From: Actinomycetota bacterium
GTDB taxonomy: Bacteria > Actinomycetota > Aquicultoria > Aquicultorales > Aquicultoraceae
NCBI GenBank assembly: GCA_018333515.1
Contig: JAGXSZ010000017.1
Location: 1-43,073, forward strand
Reading direction: 5' to 3'
DNA length: 43,073 nucleotides
Shown: positions 3,445 to 22,096 of the stretch, in pieces
Position numbering within the stretch: position 1 is the stretch's first letter
Layout of the letters: each line of letters begins with the position of its first letter
Made by a program: the position numbers and the translations under genes
The notes under the pieces: generated by a model
Told to the model about the DNA's origin: nothing
Database searches by the model: none
What the model saw: the letters and a program-made list of their open reading frames with translations, nothing else

Positions 3445-4581
3445 TTGAAAGGTCGAATACACCGCAGGAACATATCCGGATGCGGTTTGGCGGGGATGAT
3501 GAGTGAAGACGGACGGCTGATGAGCGGCGAGGGCATTATCCGCTCGATGGAGGTATTGCACGACCGCTCAAACGGGCTTGGCGGCGGATTCGCCGGATAC
3601 GGCATCTACCCCGATAAGAAAGAGCATTACGCTCTACACATTATGTACGACGACATCAAAGCCAAAGAGATGACCGATCTCCTCATCGACGAGTGGTTCG
3701 AGGTCGACGCCGAAGAGGTCATCCCGACCAGGAAGGTGCCGGGGGTCGGCAAAGCGCCGCTTCTCTGGAGGTATTTCGTCAAGCCGAGCGCCGACTTTAA
3801 CGAGTGCGGCGTCTGCGAGGAAGATTATGTCATCGACGCGGTCATGCTCGTCAACTCGACGGTCGAGGGCGCTTTTATCTTCTCCTCGGGGAAGAATATG
3901 GGCGCGTTTAAAGCGGTCGGCTTCCCGGAGGACGTGGGCAAATTCTACCGCCTCGACGAGTATGCGGGCTACACCTGGATAGGACACGGCCGGTTTCCGA
4001 CGAACACCCCCGGCTGGTGGGGCGGGGCGCACCCGTTTACCATCCTCGACTGGGCGATAGTCCACAACGGCGAGATTTCGTCGTACGGCATCAACAAGCG
4101 ATACCTCGAGATGTTCGGCTACAAATGCACGATGCTCACCGACACCGAGGTCGTCGCGTACTCGTTCGACCTCTTGCTGAGGCGACACAACCTCCCGATA
4201 GAGCTGGCCTGCAAGGCGTTGGCCGCCTCGTTCTGGACCGATATCGACCGCATGAAAGCACAGGGGAAGAAGGTCGCCGATGTGTACGAGGCGCTTAGGA
4301 TAGTCTATGGCGGCGGTCTCCTAAACGGACCCTTCGCTATAATCCTCGGCCACGCCAACGGCATGGTGGGCTTGAGCGACCGAGTCAAATTGCGCCCGCT
4401 CGTCGCGGCGCGCAAAGACGATATGCTCTACATCGCAAGCGAAGAGTCGGCGATACGCGAGGTCGCGTCGGTCCTCGATAAAGTCTGGAACCCTAAAGCC
4501 GGCGAGCCGGTCATCGGCGAGTTGAAAATCCCGGTTAGCGATACGGACGCGGTACGTGAATTAGAGGAGACGGTGGCATAG
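3445..4581 (+). CDS. gltB1: Glutamate synthase, stand-alone glutaminase (class II amidotransferase) subunit
   Basis: Encodes 378 residues from a TTG start 6 nt behind AGGAGG. It is the N-terminal nucleophile amidotransferase part of glutamate synthase encoded as a separate protein, as in archaea and some deep-branching bacteria. It hydrolyses glutamine and passes ammonia to the FMN subunit. The sequence shows a candidate nucleophile Cys13 (SGCGLAGMMS) after a short leader that would be removed, the WIGHGRFPTN strand, the HNGEISSYG motif, and TDTEVVAYSFDLLLRR. The gene is separated from the next by no gap (stop codon TAG, then ATG), as expected for subunits made in equal amounts. It heads a five-gene operon that divides the usual GltB into three polypeptides. 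Confidence 0.88.
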   Translation: MKGRIHRRNISGCGLAGMMSEDGRLMSGEGIIRSMEVLHDRSNGLGGGFAGYGIYPDKKEHYALHIMYDDIKAKEMTDLLIDEWFEVDAEEVIPTRKVPGVGKAPLLWRYFVKPSADFNECGVCEEDYVIDAVMLVNSTVEGAFIFSSGKNMGAFKAVGFPEDVGKFYRLDEYAGYTWIGHGRFPTNTPGWWGGAHPFTILDWAIVHNGEISSYGINKRYLEMFGYKCTMLTDTEVVAYSFDLLLRRHNLPIELACKALAASFWTDIDRMKAQGKKVADVYEALRIVYGGGLLNGPFAIILGHANGMVGLSDRVKLRPLVAARKDDMLYIASEESAIREVASVLDKVWNPKAGEPVIGELKIPVSDTDAVRELEETVA

Positions 4582-6099
4582 ATGAAGACCTACCAGCTAC
4601 CCGAACTCAAAATTGAACGGGACAAAGATAGATGCATAGACTGTCAGGTATGCGTACGCCAGTGCGCGTTCGAGGCGCACAAGGTGGACGAAGACGGCGA
4701 AGTCTACAGCGAGGACGAAAAGTGCGTCGCATGTCAGCGGTGCGTTTCGCTCTGTCCGACCAACGCCCTGACGATAAAGGATAACAAACCATTTGTAAAA
4801 GACAACGCCAACTGGACCGCCGAGACCCAGAAGTATATCTGGAAACAGGCGGAGACCGGCGGCGTGCTCTTGACCGGTATGGGCAATCCCAAGCCGTACC
4901 CGATTTACTGGGATCATATGTTGCTCAACGCGAGCCAGGTCACCAACCCGTCGATCGACCCGCTCCGCGAGCCGATGGAGCTTAGGACGTACCTCGGCAG
5001 CAAGCCGGATAAAATAGATATAGAGATGGTCGACGGCGAGCCGGTTCTCAAGACCGCGCTCGCCCCCCAGCTTATGCTAAAGACGCCGATTCTCTTTTCG
5101 GCGATGTCGTTCGGCGCGGTCAGCTATAGCGTCTGCGAGGGTCTGGCCCGCGCGTCGAAAGCGCTCGGCACCTTTTGGAACACCGGCGAGGGCGGCCTTC
5201 CGCAAGGCCTTTACGAGTATGGCCCGAACACGATAGTGCAGGTAGCGTCGGGACGTTTCGGCGTCCACAGCGAGTACCTCGACGCCGCGGCGGCTATCGA
5301 GATTAAAATCGGCCAGGGCGCGAAGCCCGGTATCGGCGGACACCTTCCCGGTGAGAAGGTCGGCCCGGTCGTCAGTCGCACCAGGATGATACCGGTCGGC
5401 TCGGATGCGATTTCACCCGCCCCCCACCACGACATCTACTCGATCGAGGATTTAAGCCAGCTAATTTACAGCCTCAAAGAGGCGACTGAATACACTAAGC
5501 CGATATCGGTCAAGATATCGGCGGTCCACAACGTGGCCGCAATCGCGAGCGGCATCGCCCGCGCGGGCGCCGACATCATCGCAATCGACGGTTTTCGCGG
5601 CGGGACCGGCGCGACGCCGACGATGATCCGCGACAACGTCGGTATCCCGATTGAACTCGCCATCGCGGCGGTCGACACGCGACTGCGCGATGAGGCAATC
5701 CGCAACCGCGTTTCGGTCATCGCGGCGGGCGGTTTTAGAAACAGCGCCGATGTCGTCAAGGCCATCGCGCTCGGCGCGGACGCGGTCTATCTCGGCACGG
5801 CGGCGCTGGTGGCTATGGGTTGCCATGTCTGCCAGATGTGTTACACCGGCAAGTGTAACTGGGGTATCGCGACGCAAGACCCGTACCTCGAGAAGCGCCT
5901 CAACCCGGATGTCGCGGCTGAGCGCCTCTTTAACCTGGTGCGCGGCTGGTCGCATGAGATAGCCGAGATGCTCGGCGGCATGGGCTTAAACGCGATAGAG
6001 TCGCTGCGCGGCAACCGGCTGCACTTGCGCTCGATAGGCCTCTCCACCGAGGAGATGGACATACTCGGCCTGCAGGCCGCGGGCTCGCCGATGGCGTAG
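4582..6099 (+). CDS. gltB2: Glutamate synthase, FMN/Fe-S synthase subunit with N-terminal ferredoxin domain
   Basis: Encodes 505 residues. Residues 18-28 (CIDCQVCVRQC) and 48-58 (CVACQRCVSLC) form a two-cluster ferredoxin domain. The rest is the FMN-binding glutamate synthase barrel, with IAIDGFRGGTGATPTMI (FMN/2-oxoglutarate site) and a cysteine group near MGCHVCQMCYTGKCNWGI that resembles the 3Fe-4S loop of GltB. The domain makes two glutamates from 2-oxoglutarate and ammonia. Fusion of the ferredoxin to the barrel is the arrangement known from the archaeal-type enzyme; no GltD-like gene is fused. It directly follows the glutaminase gene. The electron donor is probably the Fe-S protein and FAD oxidoreductase encoded next. 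Confidence 0.9.
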   Translation: MKTYQLPELKIERDKDRCIDCQVCVRQCAFEAHKVDEDGEVYSEDEKCVACQRCVSLCPTNALTIKDNKPFVKDNANWTAETQKYIWKQAETGGVLLTGMGNPKPYPIYWDHMLLNASQVTNPSIDPLREPMELRTYLGSKPDKIDIEMVDGEPVLKTALAPQLMLKTPILFSAMSFGAVSYSVCEGLARASKALGTFWNTGEGGLPQGLYEYGPNTIVQVASGRFGVHSEYLDAAAAIEIKIGQGAKPGIGGHLPGEKVGPVVSRTRMIPVGSDAISPAPHHDIYSIEDLSQLIYSLKEATEYTKPISVKISAVHNVAAIASGIARAGADIIAIDGFRGGTGATPTMIRDNVGIPIELAIAAVDTRLRDEAIRNRVSVIAAGGFRNSADVVKAIALGADAVYLGTAALVAMGCHVCQMCYTGKCNWGIATQDPYLEKRLNPDVAAERLFNLVRGWSHEIAEMLGGMGLNAIESLRGNRLHLRSIGLSTEEMDILGLQAAGSPMA

Positions 6100-9599: not shown

Positions 9600-9637
9600 T
9601 TAACGGCGTGTTAACTAAGATGTAACATGGCTGTAAC
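9600..9637 (+). promoter_or_regulatory. Four 11-bp-phased TTAAC/GTAAC pentamers upstream of glnA (candidate GlnR-type operator)
   Basis: TTAAC at 9600-9604 and 9611-9615 and GTAAC at 9622-9626 and 9633-9637 are spaced by exactly 6 bp each, one helical turn apart. Tandem pentamers with 6-bp spacers are the binding mode of GlnR, and 11-bp direct repeats are general for OmpR/PhoB-type winged helices. A TATATT -10 follows at 9671-9676 with no good -35, as expected for an activated promoter. Confidence 0.75.
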
Positions 9638-9694
9638 ATGTGAAAGCTAAAATTAAAAGGTAAATTCGCATATATTGTGAGAGGGTGTTGTTTT

Positions 9695-11017
9695 GTGAAG
9701 AAAGATCAAGAGTATGTCCTGAAGCAAGTAAAGGACAAAAATGTCAGGTTCATCCGGTTCTGGTTTACCGATGTGTTGGGCTTTTTGAAGAGCTTCTCGG
9801 TGACCCCGGCCGAGCTGGAGCTGGCGTTCGAGGAGGGCATGGGCTTTGACGGCTCGTCAATCGAGGGCTTTACGCGCATCGAAGAGTCGGACATGATAGC
9901 CAAGCCGGACCCGAGCACCTTTACGCTCTTGCCGTGGTCGAAAGAGGTAAATGTCGCTAAAGTCATGTGCGATATCGAGAAACCCGACGGCACGCCTTTC
10001 GAGGGCGACCCGAGAAACGTGCTCAAGACCCAGCTTAAAAGGGCCGCCGACATGGGCTATACCATGTATGTCGGCCCGGAACTCGAGTTCTTCTATTTCA
10101 AGGACTCGAACGGGACCGAAGTATTGGATAGGGGCGGCTACTTCGATTTAACCCCGCTCGACCTGGCTACTCCTTACCGCAGGGACACGATATTCGCGCT
10201 GGAGAGCATGGGTATTACCGTCGAGTACTCGCATCACGAGGTGGCCCCGAGCCAGCATGAGATAGATTTGCGCTACGCCGATGCGCTCTCGATGTCGGAC
10301 AATGTCATGGCGTATCGCCTGGCGGTAAAAGAAATCGCACATGAGCACGGCGTCTATGCGACCTTTATGCCGAAACCCATTTTCGGACAGAACGGGAGCG
10401 GCATGCACGTCCACCAGTCGCTCTTTAAGGGAGACTCGAACGCGTTCTTCGACGCGAACGATGAATATCATCTTTCGGATGTCGCCAAGGGCTATATCGC
10501 GGGTATCTTGAAGCACGCGCCCGAGATGACCATAGTATTGAACCAATGGGTAAACAGCTACAAGCGCCTTGTTCCGGGTTATGAGGCGCCGGTCTATGTC
10601 TGCTGGAGCCGCCGGAACAGAAGCGCCCTGGTACGCGTCCCGATGTACAAACCGGGCAAAGAAGCCGCTACCCGCATCGAGCTGAGAAGCCCGGACCCGG
10701 CCTGCAACCCGTATCTTGCCTTCGCGGTTATGCTCGCAGCCGGCCTGGAGGGCATCGAAAAAGGCTACAAACTCGCGCCCGAGGCCAATAATAACATCTA
10801 CGAGATGACCGAAACCGAGCGCTCGGATGCCGGTATCGGCTCGCTCCCGGCGGACTTGCACGAAGCGATCAAACTCGCGGAGAGCAGTGAATTCCTGCGC
10901 GGCGCACTCGGCGACCATGTCTACGAGTACTTCTTGAGGAACAAGAGGGCGGAGTGGGATGCCTACAAGATGCAGGTTACCGAGTATGAATTGAACAGGT
11001 ATCTGTCGATACTCTAA
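9695..11017 (+). CDS. glnA: Glutamine synthetase, type I (alpha-like, no adenylylation site)
   Basis: Encodes 440 residues from the GTG at 9695, chosen because GAGGGTG precedes it and because the protein then begins KKDQEYVLKQVKDKNVRFIR like other GSI enzymes; an upstream GTG at 9677 would add six odd residues. The enzyme joins ammonia and glutamate using ATP. Visible motifs are MGFDGSSIEGF (Asp-50 loop), the metal site GPELEFFYF, NGSGMHVHQSL, and PSRNRSAL-like CWSRRNRSALVRVP. The tail reads NNNIYEMTE instead of the NLYDLPPEE adenylylation loop, so activity is probably feedback or protein controlled as in Bacillus and thermophile GSI-alpha enzymes. It is monocistronic, between an operator with phased repeats and a strong terminator. 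Confidence 0.93.
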   Translation: MKKDQEYVLKQVKDKNVRFIRFWFTDVLGFLKSFSVTPAELELAFEEGMGFDGSSIEGFTRIEESDMIAKPDPSTFTLLPWSKEVNVAKVMCDIEKPDGTPFEGDPRNVLKTQLKRAADMGYTMYVGPELEFFYFKDSNGTEVLDRGGYFDLTPLDLATPYRRDTIFALESMGITVEYSHHEVAPSQHEIDLRYADALSMSDNVMAYRLAVKEIAHEHGVYATFMPKPIFGQNGSGMHVHQSLFKGDSNAFFDANDEYHLSDVAKGYIAGILKHAPEMTIVLNQWVNSYKRLVPGYEAPVYVCWSRRNRSALVRVPMYKPGKEAATRIELRSPDPACNPYLAFAVMLAAGLEGIEKGYKLAPEANNNIYEMTETERSDAGIGSLPADLHEAIKLAESSEFLRGALGDHVYEYFLRNKRAEWDAYKMQVTEYELNRYLSIL

Positions 11018-13707: not shown

Positions 13708-14688
13708 TTAGAGATTCCAAAAATTGACCAGCTTATCGAAGTCGATAAGCGTGCTCATAGCCTTGCTGTCGGTTTTAATCCCCGACTCTTCTAGGGCGGC
13801 CAGGGGATTAAGACCGCCCATGACGACCAAGCCCATCCGGCCGGGGTTGACCCCGGTCTCGAGTATGGCTTGTCCGGGACGTCCGAAGCGCAAAATACCA
13901 TAGAAGCCGGACTCCTCCAGCATCCCGAGGAGTGCCCTCGATTTGTCGGCGGCGACCGCCGGTATTTCGCGGAAACTCGCCAGTATCTTGCCGCTGCCCG
14001 TGAGGGCGACCTCCCGGACCGAGGTCATCTTGCTGGCGATAAATATCTCCAGCGGGTCGATGGTCGTACCCGCATAGGTTATCAACTCGGTAAAACGTAA
14101 CGGCTCCCCCTTGTCGAACTGGAGGATGCCGCCGAACTTTGAATCGACGGGAATACCCGCCTGAAGAAATATGCTGTTAAGCGTTATGCTGCAAATCGTG
14201 CCGAAAGCTACCGTGCCGGGCGGGACCTCGATAGAGCCTATAAACTCGCCTTCGGTCGCGATGGCGACGAGGTCGCTGATGCCGAGCTTCGCGGCGAAGG
14301 TGTCCTTCATGATGGCGAGCGCTTCGTCTAAGACCTCTTGCGGCATCAACGTCACATTTAAGATTACTCGACCGGTCTTCTCCGCAAGATTTAAATCCGC
14401 CATGAAAGAGAGGGTGTCGATTTTGGTGATTACCAAGCCGAGTTTGTCGGCGACGAGGGCGTTGGACAGCTCTTCTTTACCTCTCGCCGTCAGGAGTCGC
14501 CCCTCTTTCCCACGGACTTCGGTCAGTCCCCGTTCATCCATCAATTGGAGATGATACCGGACTGCTCGCTCGCTAAGGTCGATACCGAACGACTTGAGCC
14601 GCTTAGAAATAATGCCTGCCCCAAGCGGTTCTTTTTCCTTTGATAAGATATCTAGAATCGTCACCGATTTTCTTTCGATTTCGTGCAT
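13708..14688 (-). CDS. nrpR: NrpR-like nitrogen transcriptional repressor
   Basis: Encodes 326 residues. Residues 1-70 form a winged helix of the RNase R/NrpR type (SVTILDILSKEKEPLGAGII, then SERAVRYHLQLMDERGL and GRLLTARGKEEL). Residues of about 80-320 are one NrpR (DUF128) sensor domain, with VPPGTVAFGTICSITLNSIF and GLVVMGGLNPLAALEESGI. In methanogens NrpR represses nif and glnA and is released by 2-oxoglutarate; archaeal proteins carry one or two sensor domains, this one has one. A bacterial copy next to glutamate synthase, glnA and nif genes strongly suggests the same job. It is divergent from a PucR-type gene, with a 7-bp inverted repeat in the shared promoter region that could be its own operator. 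Confidence 0.85.
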   Translation of the reverse strand: MHEIERKSVTILDILSKEKEPLGAGIISKRLKSFGIDLSERAVRYHLQLMDERGLTEVRGKEGRLLTARGKEELSNALVADKLGLVITKIDTLSFMADLNLAEKTGRVILNVTLMPQEVLDEALAIMKDTFAAKLGISDLVAIATEGEFIGSIEVPPGTVAFGTICSITLNSIFLQAGIPVDSKFGGILQFDKGEPLRFTELITYAGTTIDPLEIFIASKMTSVREVALTGSGKILASFREIPAVAADKSRALLGMLEESGFYGILRFGRPGQAILETGVNPGRMGLVVMGGLNPLAALEESGIKTDSKAMSTLIDFDKLVNFWNL

Positions 14689-14736: not shown

Positions 14737-14906
14737 CTAAATTATCATAGCTTATATATTAAGACAGGTAGGTGTTTTTATGCAAATAAAATTAACGCAT
14801 ATTTCACACGCGGGTAATATAGGAGAAACATCGGGTCTATAGACTAAGCGTAATAAGTGCGGAAGGCCTGACGCCTTTCATCTTTTCGACTATGCGAGGC
14901 GCGCCG

Positions 14907-16616
14907 ATGCTTACCATCGAACAAGTTCTAAAAGCCGCATCCTTTCAAAACGCGGAGCTTCTGACCCGCTTCGACCCCGATGCGCCCGCCGTCGATTCGG
15001 TTACGGTGGGGGAGGTGCCCGATATCGCCAACTGGTTGACCGGCGGCGAGATGGTGTTGACCACGCTTTTTTCGGCGCGGGAGGCCGGTATCGATAAATT
15101 CGATATCGTCGAGAGCATCATCGAGGGTCCTGCCGGGGCGCTCGTCGTCAAGCTCGGCAGGTTCGTCGATGCGTTGCCGCCGGAGATAATCGAGCTGGCC
15201 AACGAGCGGAAGTTCCCCATCATCTCATTGTCGTCGGAGGTTCGCTGGACTAACGTTATCAAAGATGTCTCACGCCTATTGGGCCAGGAGGAACTTGCGA
15301 AGCTGACCTGGCTCGAGACGATACGTCGGCAGTTTGGGCGGATAAACGCGGGCGACGGCGGGTTGCTCTCGGTCGCGAAGACGCTCGCCGGCTTGACCGG
15401 GCATGCCGTCGTTATCGAAGACCTGTTTGGCGGTGTTTTCGCAGAGAGTCCGGTCTCTGGGGAATTGCCCGCGGGACACACAAATACGCCGGTATTTTTG
15501 CAGCTCGGCAAAGACTCGGGTCGCTTCCATATCGAGCAGAACATCTCGGCCGGCTCGTTTCTTTATTATGAGATAGCCGGGCGCAAAGCGGGGGGTGTTC
15601 GCAAACTCGTATTCGAACTCGACGACGGGCACGACCGCTGCGGCTATCTCGTCGTCATCATAGACGAAGACGACGGGGCGCCGGCCGCCGTCGAGATGCG
15701 CTTGCTCGCCATCGACAAGGCGGTCGAGGCCGCCAACATCGAACTCTCGAGGATGAGGGCTTCGCTCGACGCCGAGATGCGCTTGATGGGTAACCTCTTC
15801 TCGATGCTGACGAGCGGTAATCTCACGCATGAGCAGGCGGTGAGCAGGGCTTCGTTTTTGCGGATAGACCTAACGCATGGCTTTATCGTCTGTGTGGTCG
15901 ACTTGGTCCACGCTGCGCACGATTCGGCCGACGAAGGGACTCAGCGCAGCATCGAGCGGATAAGCGAGCGCGCCGTCAGTATCGTAAAACGAATCGTCGA
16001 CGTCGATTTCCCGGGTTCGCTCGTCGCGCTCGACAGCAAGAGGGTCCATCTCTTGCTGATACCGGTGAGCGGGCAGGAGGCCCGCGCTCGCGCGAAGTTG
16101 GTCGGCGCGACGGTCGGTAAAGCGGCGCAGGCGTTGCGGGACTCTCTGCCGATGGTGACATTTAAAATCGGAGCGAGCGCCTATCACGATAACGCCGCCG
16201 AAATCCATGTCGCGCACGCCGAGGCCGTCACCGCCGCGCTTATCGCCTCGGCAACGGCGCGGGCCGACGGCATCGGCAATTTCAGCGAACTCGGCCTCTA
16301 TAAACTACTTCTTCACCTCAGCAGCTCGCACCCGGAGGAGGCGCGCAAGTTTTATCTCGATACGCTCGGGCCGGTCGAGGAGTATGACCGTAAGCGCGAG
16401 GGCGGTCTCCTCGGCACGCTCGAGGCCTTCTTCGACGCGCGCGAAAACATCAACGAGACAGCCGCGCAGCTCTTTACCCATCGCCACACGATACGTTACC
16501 GGCTGCAGAGGATTGCCGAGTTGTCCGGCCACGACCCGTTCGACCCCGACAGCCGCGAAATCCTGCGCGTGGCGGTCAAAATGCGACGGCTTTTCTTAAA
16601 CCGTCATTTTGGTTAG
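14907..16616 (+). CDS. PucR family transcriptional regulator
   Basis: Encodes 569 residues from the ATG at 14907, preceded by GAGG at 7 nt; an ATG five codons upstream lacks a ribosome site. The N-terminal 120 residues are a PucR domain (MLTIEQVLKAASFQNAELL, then NWLTGGEMVLTTLFSAREAG and FPIISLS). The centre (about 290-440) resembles the CdaR/GGDEF-like linker domain. The C-terminus is the PucR-type helix-turn-helix (ENINETAAQLFTHRHTIRYR, then LQRIAELSGHDPFDP). Relatives control purine breakdown or other nitrogen and carbon sources in Gram-positive bacteria. The neighbours suggest nitrogen metabolism, but no purine genes are in view and the target is unknown. A 7-bp stem (AGAATGG/CCATTCT) follows the stop. 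Confidence 0.85.
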   Translation: MLTIEQVLKAASFQNAELLTRFDPDAPAVDSVTVGEVPDIANWLTGGEMVLTTLFSAREAGIDKFDIVESIIEGPAGALVVKLGRFVDALPPEIIELANERKFPIISLSSEVRWTNVIKDVSRLLGQEELAKLTWLETIRRQFGRINAGDGGLLSVAKTLAGLTGHAVVIEDLFGGVFAESPVSGELPAGHTNTPVFLQLGKDSGRFHIEQNISAGSFLYYEIAGRKAGGVRKLVFELDDGHDRCGYLVVIIDEDDGAPAAVEMRLLAIDKAVEAANIELSRMRASLDAEMRLMGNLFSMLTSGNLTHEQAVSRASFLRIDLTHGFIVCVVDLVHAAHDSADEGTQRSIERISERAVSIVKRIVDVDFPGSLVALDSKRVHLLLIPVSGQEARARAKLVGATVGKAAQALRDSLPMVTFKIGASAYHDNAAEIHVAHAEAVTAALIASATARADGIGNFSELGLYKLLLHLSSSHPEEARKFYLDTLGPVEEYDRKREGGLLGTLEAFFDARENINETAAQLFTHRHTIRYRLQRIAELSGHDPFDPDSREILRVAVKMRRLFLNRHFG

Positions 16617-20483: not shown

Positions 20484-20723
20484 TGAGGAGGGTCGTCGCT
20501 AGTCGAATATTCAGTGCCGTTATCTTGTGAACGGGTTCGTGTTATTTGTGTTTTGCACGTCGCAATCGTCATAGTATTTGTTGACACTGACCCAATCGAT
20601 AAGCCGGTTTAGCCATTACAAAACAACACTATACCCGAGCACGACAGACGCGTCAAATAAGGGGGGACGTTGTTACGGTGGTTACGTTAGCTAAAATATG
20701 CAGGTACACATAAGCACATATGG

Positions 20724-20752
20724 TTGACACTTATTTATCCCAAGGGTAGACT
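20724..20752 (+). promoter_or_regulatory. Promoter of the transposase remnant
   Basis: TTGACA (20724-20729), 17 bp, TAGACT (20747-20752). The predicted start of transcription coincides with the ATG at 20759, so the message would be leaderless. Confidence 0.5.
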
Positions 20753-20758
20753 TGTCTT

Positions 20759-21055
20759 ATGCCAAGGCTACCAAGGCTAGATATCCCCGGGTTGATCTAT
20801 CACGTAATATTCCGGGGGATAGAGCAAAAACAGTATTCAGAGGCGAGGCTGTTCTACAAGATATCGATCAGAAGGAAAAAGGGGCGCACCGGCACGGAGA
20901 CGGCCCGCTTGAAGAACTCCTCGATAAAGTGGCTATTTACCACAAGCTGAGCTTGCCTGAGCTTTATTCCGGCTCCAGAAGGAAAGTCGTCTCTATGACA
21001 TAATCAGGCTGGAAAAAGGTGAGGGCGGGCTATTTAAAGATTAAGATTAAATGCA
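20759..21055 (+). pseudogene. REP-associated (Y1_Tnp) transposase remnant
   Basis: The first 25 codons (PRLPRLDIPGLIYHVIFRGI) are the canonical N-terminus of a RAYT transposase. After about residue 26 the sequence diverges and the frame stops at 20950. In another frame, 20909-21003, a RAYT-style C-terminal piece appears (ELLDKVAIYHKLSLPELYSG). A third frame continues to a TAA at 21043-21045. The HUH and catalytic Tyr regions are gone. Large internal deletion plus frameshifts make it non-functional; it may persist as a non-autonomous element if a relative such as the transposase at 41597 can act on its ends. Confidence 0.7.
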
Positions 21056-21089
21056 TCTAAGGTATCCGTAACAGCCGTAACAACGTCCC

Positions 21090-22096
<1,007 letters not shown>

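Follow-up and report, generated by a model that had tools for sequence, protein, structure and literature searches.

The four pentamers that lie upstream of the glutamine synthetase gene glnA in the 43,073-nucleotide stretch of Aquicultoraceae DNA analysed here (the window; contig JAGXSZ010000017.1) are best explained as a GlnR operator that also supplies the glnA promoter with its activator-dependent upstream element, a reading to which we assign a probability of about 0.9. Judged by its sequence, the system appears to work like, and by nearly all of the features tested is, an actinobacterial GlnR promoter. We found no literature report of a GlnR-box promoter in the Aquicultor lineage, and the present analysis places a probable GlnR regulon, in which the promoter geometry is fixed, in a deep branch of the Actinomycetota outside the actinomycetes. 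Its presence in such a branch points to an early origin of the GlnR control of glnA and amt within the phylum. The features concerned are listed in Table 1.

Table 1. Coordinates of the regulator genes, operator repeats and promoter elements in the window.
Feature	Position	Strand	Evidence or remark
glnR (putative), orphan OmpR/PhoB-type regulator, 210 aa, degenerate receiver and winged helix	8859..9491	+	PF00486, PDB matches, linkage
Pentamer 1 (a1), TTAAC	9600-9604	+	about -60..-56; read directly from the sequence
Pentamer 2 (b1), TTAAC	9611-9615	+	TTAAY kept in the footprint
Pentamer 3 (a2), GTAAC	9622-9626	+	at the -35 position; GTAACAT kept in seven genomes
Pentamer 4 (b2), GTAAC	9633-9637	+	conserved; distance to the -10 constant at 10 nt in glnA promoters
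Predicted -10 hexamer of PglnA, TAAAAT	9648-9653	+	TATAAT-like hexamer at equal distance in relatives
glnA, glutamine synthetase type I	9695..11017	+	PF00120 9.7e-134, PF03951
nrpR-like gene, archaeal-type nitrogen repressor	13708..14688	-	PF01995 3.1e-82, PF08461 1.1e-20
Second GlnR-type box, TTAAC-n6-TTCAC-n6-GTAAT-n6-GAAAC	14792..14829	+	second-best array in the window
TAGACT, n10 after the second box	14840-14845	+	
PucR-family regulator gene	14892..16616	+	PF07905, PF13556, PF17853; downstream of the second box

An earlier sequence-only reading of this DNA had described four pentamers in strict 11-bp phase next to a promoter without a -35 element, and both parts of that description held on direct inspection. 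The start positions were exact, the spacing is 11/11/11 with all four repeats on the plus strand, and exactly 10 nt separate the end of pentamer 4 from the -10 hexamer TAAAAT. The glnA promoter contains no -35 hexamer, and pentamer 3 and its spacer occupy the -35 position. The start codon of glnA is most likely GTG 9695 rather than GTG 9677, because a ribosome-binding-like AGAGGGTG precedes the former. Under a first-order Markov model of the window, four KTAAC pentamers at 11-bp phase are expected 3e-7 times per window on both strands, and the score of the glnA array (19.4) exceeded the best value from 20 Markov-shuffled windows (15.9). In pattern searches, of which all the genome-wide work consisted, the glnA array was the only match without mismatches to this motif in the 2.33-Mb genome, and 19 matches were obtained with up to three mismatches allowed, compared to two for the reversed control. 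Matches at C8:407-455 were dropped, as they fall in what we recognised as the 16S rRNA motif GTGAGTAACACGTGGGTAAC, and AT-rich matches on contigs C2, C8, C19 and C30 were not considered further, since we judged most of them to be Pho-type or unrelated.

The gene immediately upstream of glnA had been proposed to encode a GlnR-like winged-helix protein, and this identification was supported. Its C-terminus matched Trans_reg_C (PF00486, 5.5e-28, residues 135-208), the domain of OmpR/PhoB-type regulators, and the top PDB chains were 8hig (3.9e-35), 8hih (7.3e-33) and 8hml, ahead of RegX3 (3.6e-26), PhoB (1e-19) and PhoP. The lead of 8hig over the non-GlnR matches was about nine orders of magnitude for the full protein, and the winged helix alone gave 1e-32 vs 1e-19. 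We take these three structures to be actinobacterial GlnR, with which a four-copy chain count and the four-GlnR activation complex of the review cited below agree. The receiver keeps an aspartate in 'VCIVDEEN', but neither the acidic pair nor the conserved lysine of the canonical receiver L050 is present. There is also no counterpart of the Arg-52 that lies next to Asp-50 in the charge network described in Amycolatopsis; the window protein has glutamate here, and most family relatives likewise have a residue other than arginine. We do not take Arg-52 as a defining residue for GlnR across the phylum. No histidine kinase adjoins the gene, whose neighbours are parts of glutamate synthase and glnA, and the regulator probably acts independently of a kinase. 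The linkage to glnA recurs in most genomes of the family. The closest named relatives of the protein come from Candidatus Aquicultor MAGs (90% identity, phylum Actinomycetota). In a winged-helix tree the clade containing the window protein had a support of 99/97, and the deep forks were weak on 94 columns; we therefore call the regulator GlnR-type by sequence, linkage and operator, strict orthology with the Streptomyces and Mycobacterium GlnR being not proven.

The published consensus for GlnR of Mycobacterium smegmatis is t/gTAAC-n6-Gc/aAAC, the Streptomyces glnA and amtB promoters contain two and three GlnR boxes, respectively, and activation involves a complex of four GlnR protomers arranged head to tail (PMC10704036). 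The form t/gTAAC-n6-G(c/a/t)AAC, repeated at 11 bp, was found at both glnA and amt, and on comparison of their anatomy the published consensus and the four-protomer complex fit the glnA box without strain. The likeness to the a-b-a-b box of actinomycetes such as Streptomyces coelicolor (glnA and amtB) extends to the 6-nt spacers, the four sites, their coding-strand orientation, the glnA and amt targets, and the orphan OmpR-type regulator with a degenerate phospho-pocket (PMC10704036). The present system differs from those of actinomycetes, however, in that glnR immediately precedes glnA, the receiver has a shorter loop without an equivalent of Arg-52, the b-sites at glnA read GTAAC rather than GAAAC, and up to eight pentamers stand in phase at amt. 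The GlnR of Firmicutes, a MerR-type protein that recognizes an inverted-repeat operator and controls nif in Paenibacillus, shares only its name and nitrogen role with the protein described here; the protein family is unrelated and the operator is different.

We propose that the orphan regulator binds the four repeats as two dimers, with each 11-bp repeat taken by one of four winged helices that would follow one another head to tail along a single face of the DNA. GlnR bound in this way would cover positions -60 to -23, leaving 10 nt between the last repeat and the -10, and would replace the -35 contact and recruit the housekeeping RNA polymerase under nitrogen scarcity. A similar arrangement is known from the pho boxes of Escherichia coli, where 11-bp direct repeats take the place of the -35 and lie about 10 nt before the -10, although PhoB recognizes a different repeat sequence, needs phosphorylation by PhoR and serves the phosphate regulon. 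The same position of the box would also allow bound GlnR to block polymerase, since the box lies over the core promoter, including the -35 position and some of the spacer, and GlnR is known to act in both directions at some promoters. Repression of glnA nonetheless seems improbable to us. The promoter should be weak without an activator because it has no -35 hexamer, amt is a classic activated target, and the distance of 10 nt between the last repeat and the -10 is fixed across targets, as expected for an activator that contacts polymerase but unneeded for a blocker, which argues for activation rather than blocking. If GlnR is an activator here, an equal box at an equal distance from the -10 would drive amt and the amt2-glnK2-glnD operon (reduced to glnD in this genome), and the boxes at glnA, amt and glnD would together form a regulon for ammonium uptake and assimilation.

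Conservation of the promoter was evaluated in the family to which the window belongs, for which 11 genomes were available, including that of the window itself (G000). The comparison of the region ahead of glnA covered seven genomes, in which GlnR ranged from identical down to about 52% identity. TTAAY-n6-GTAAC-n6-GTAAC-n10-TATAAT stood out in all seven, the rest of the intergenic region being mostly unalignable, and the block was kept even where the downstream gene encodes a different glutamine synthetase (39% identity). As read from these alignments, the conserved block is a phylogenetic footprint of the operator and the core promoter. A search pattern of three pentamers, n10 and TANNNT, derived from the sites found in the search of G000 and from their neighbourhood, matched this genome without mismatches at exactly three sites, at glnA, amt and glnD; as the pattern had been shaped on these sites, other genomes provide its fair test. 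The 11 family genomes yielded 26 exact matches, vs four for the reversed pattern, and 25 of the 26 were directly upstream of a glutamine synthetase gene (nine), amt (15) or, in G000, glnD (one), whereas the remaining match had nothing recognisable downstream. At the amt promoter of G000, eight consecutive pentamers are in phase (L051, minus strand, about 5526-5608). Boxes were present in G009 and G027, where a clear match to GlnR was absent, which assembly gaps may explain. The genome of the window lacks the second amt and the greater part of glnK2 (L051 on contig C9, 3045-3210), so that the second GlnR box at this locus runs into a 27-aa glnK remnant and then glnD, compared to the order box-amt2-glnK2-glnD in G002; this loss is either a real deletion or an assembly collapse.

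Class-wide, the pattern gave 36 matches vs 10 for the control, and 34 of them have glnA, amt, glnR-glnA or an amt-linked operon downstream. Pentamer 1, which is absent from the pattern used for the class, was found in phase at 79% of these sites, and pentamers further upstream were found in phase at 22-28%, vs 1.4% off phase. For the phylum, the stricter four-pentamer form with one mismatch was searched in 198 genomes and returned 32 matches vs none in the control; among 25 matches checked outside the class, nine preceded amt, nine glnA, three glutamate synthase and one a nirB-like reductase. With no control matches for the four-pentamer form in the 198 genomes, the rule of 11-bp-phased pentamers, a 10-nt gap and a -10 has the specificity needed for annotating GlnR promoters by their sequence only. 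In G165 (L237), the genome of a distant actinobacterium, the box precedes a gene for a glutamate synthase glutaminase domain, of the same kind as the window gene at 3445-4581; no box of its own was found at the latter.

The same 11-bp direct-repeat geometry is used by phosphate-responsive regulators, and the repeats might instead be a Pho-type box for a PhoP, PhoB or RegX3 protein. Fold and geometry are alike, the genome encodes PhoP-type regulators, with a PhoP-like one at C2:37335, and has tandem pentamer boxes close to pst-type genes, and cross-talk between PhoP and GlnR occurs at amtB in Streptomyces (PMC10704036). We nevertheless consider this very improbable. The genome has a distinct class of boxes at pst-type genes, with AT-rich spacers (79% vs 48% A+T, in a small sample), and binding of a PhoP-type protein at the glnA box is therefore predicted to be unlikely. 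The glnA, amt and glnD sites share GTAAC/GAAAC b-sites and, across the phylum, nitrogen-gene targets; no phosphate genes were found among the targets of glnA-type boxes in this genome, which are glnA, amt and glnD. The pentamers with AT-rich spacers at G000:C19:22246 and 26938 and at C2:35862 (L053, L054) precede pstS-like genes and a PhoR/PhoP-like pair, and are probably Pho boxes.

The second-best array of the window lies between the nrpR-like gene and the PucR-family gene, with nrpR divergent from it. A box beside nrpR and reading away from it was present in all five family genomes that contain nrpR (G000, G002, G003, G004 and G006), and the arrangement with a PucR-family gene was also found in G002. 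NrpR of methanogens represses glnA and nif, and with an nrpR-like gene 4 kb away, glnA might be controlled chiefly by NrpR or another factor, the pentamers being incidental. This appears most improbable, as the glnA box is equally conserved in four genomes that lack NrpR (G005, G007, G008 and G010), and no palindrome of the NrpR operator type (GGAA-N6-TTCC) occurs anywhere in the window. The homologue of methanogen NrpR in the window shares its intergenic region with a GlnR-type box. NrpR is a repressor with another operator and, on present evidence, not the binder of the glnA site. NrpR was found in 16 of 36 class genomes, and 11 of those 16 were without any GlnR-type box. It is conceivable, although we hold this only tentatively, that two nitrogen regulators of different origin, GlnR as the activator and the archaeal-type NrpR as the repressor, have been wired together in the Aquicultor lineage. 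GlnR binding at the second box would then link ammonium assimilation to a further regulatory layer, which may control nif, with sister families of the class keeping only NrpR and no GlnR boxes. The box between nrpR and pucR makes such interplay of activator and repressor on nitrogen genes testable.

Of the gene groups that the sequence-only reading had named as places to look for the box (nif, glt, amt and nir), amt, glutamate synthase and a nirB-like gene were found among its targets in the genome and phylum scans, together with glnA and glnD, but nif was not. The nif cluster of the window begins at 21242, and no GlnR box was found within 700 bp upstream of nifH (about 390 bp in one case) in five genomes, nor any GGAA-N6-TTCC site in the nif promoters scanned in the five. 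Direct control of nif by this GlnR is not supported, because an array of this type was absent upstream of nifH in these genomes, and the scan is a clean negative for nif in the window. We found no paper on nitrogen fixation in Aquicultor.

Several other features of the nifH region were observed. A block around TATCCMCCCGTAYA...ACTTTRT...CCAA.GATA (21085-21150 in the window) is kept in five genomes from two genera, where it lies 100-200 nt ahead of nifH; no Rfam match was obtained in the window, this block included. Just upstream of nifH, a degenerate stretch at 20660-21095 resembles, by eye, a REP-type transposase gene and is flanked by inverted copies of GGRRGGACGTTGTTACGG (in the 20660s and at 21067-21095). 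In the family relative G010, a nifH copy (L149, G010:C120:2360-3175) is 64% identical and contains an in-frame TAG, and is perhaps a decaying gene.
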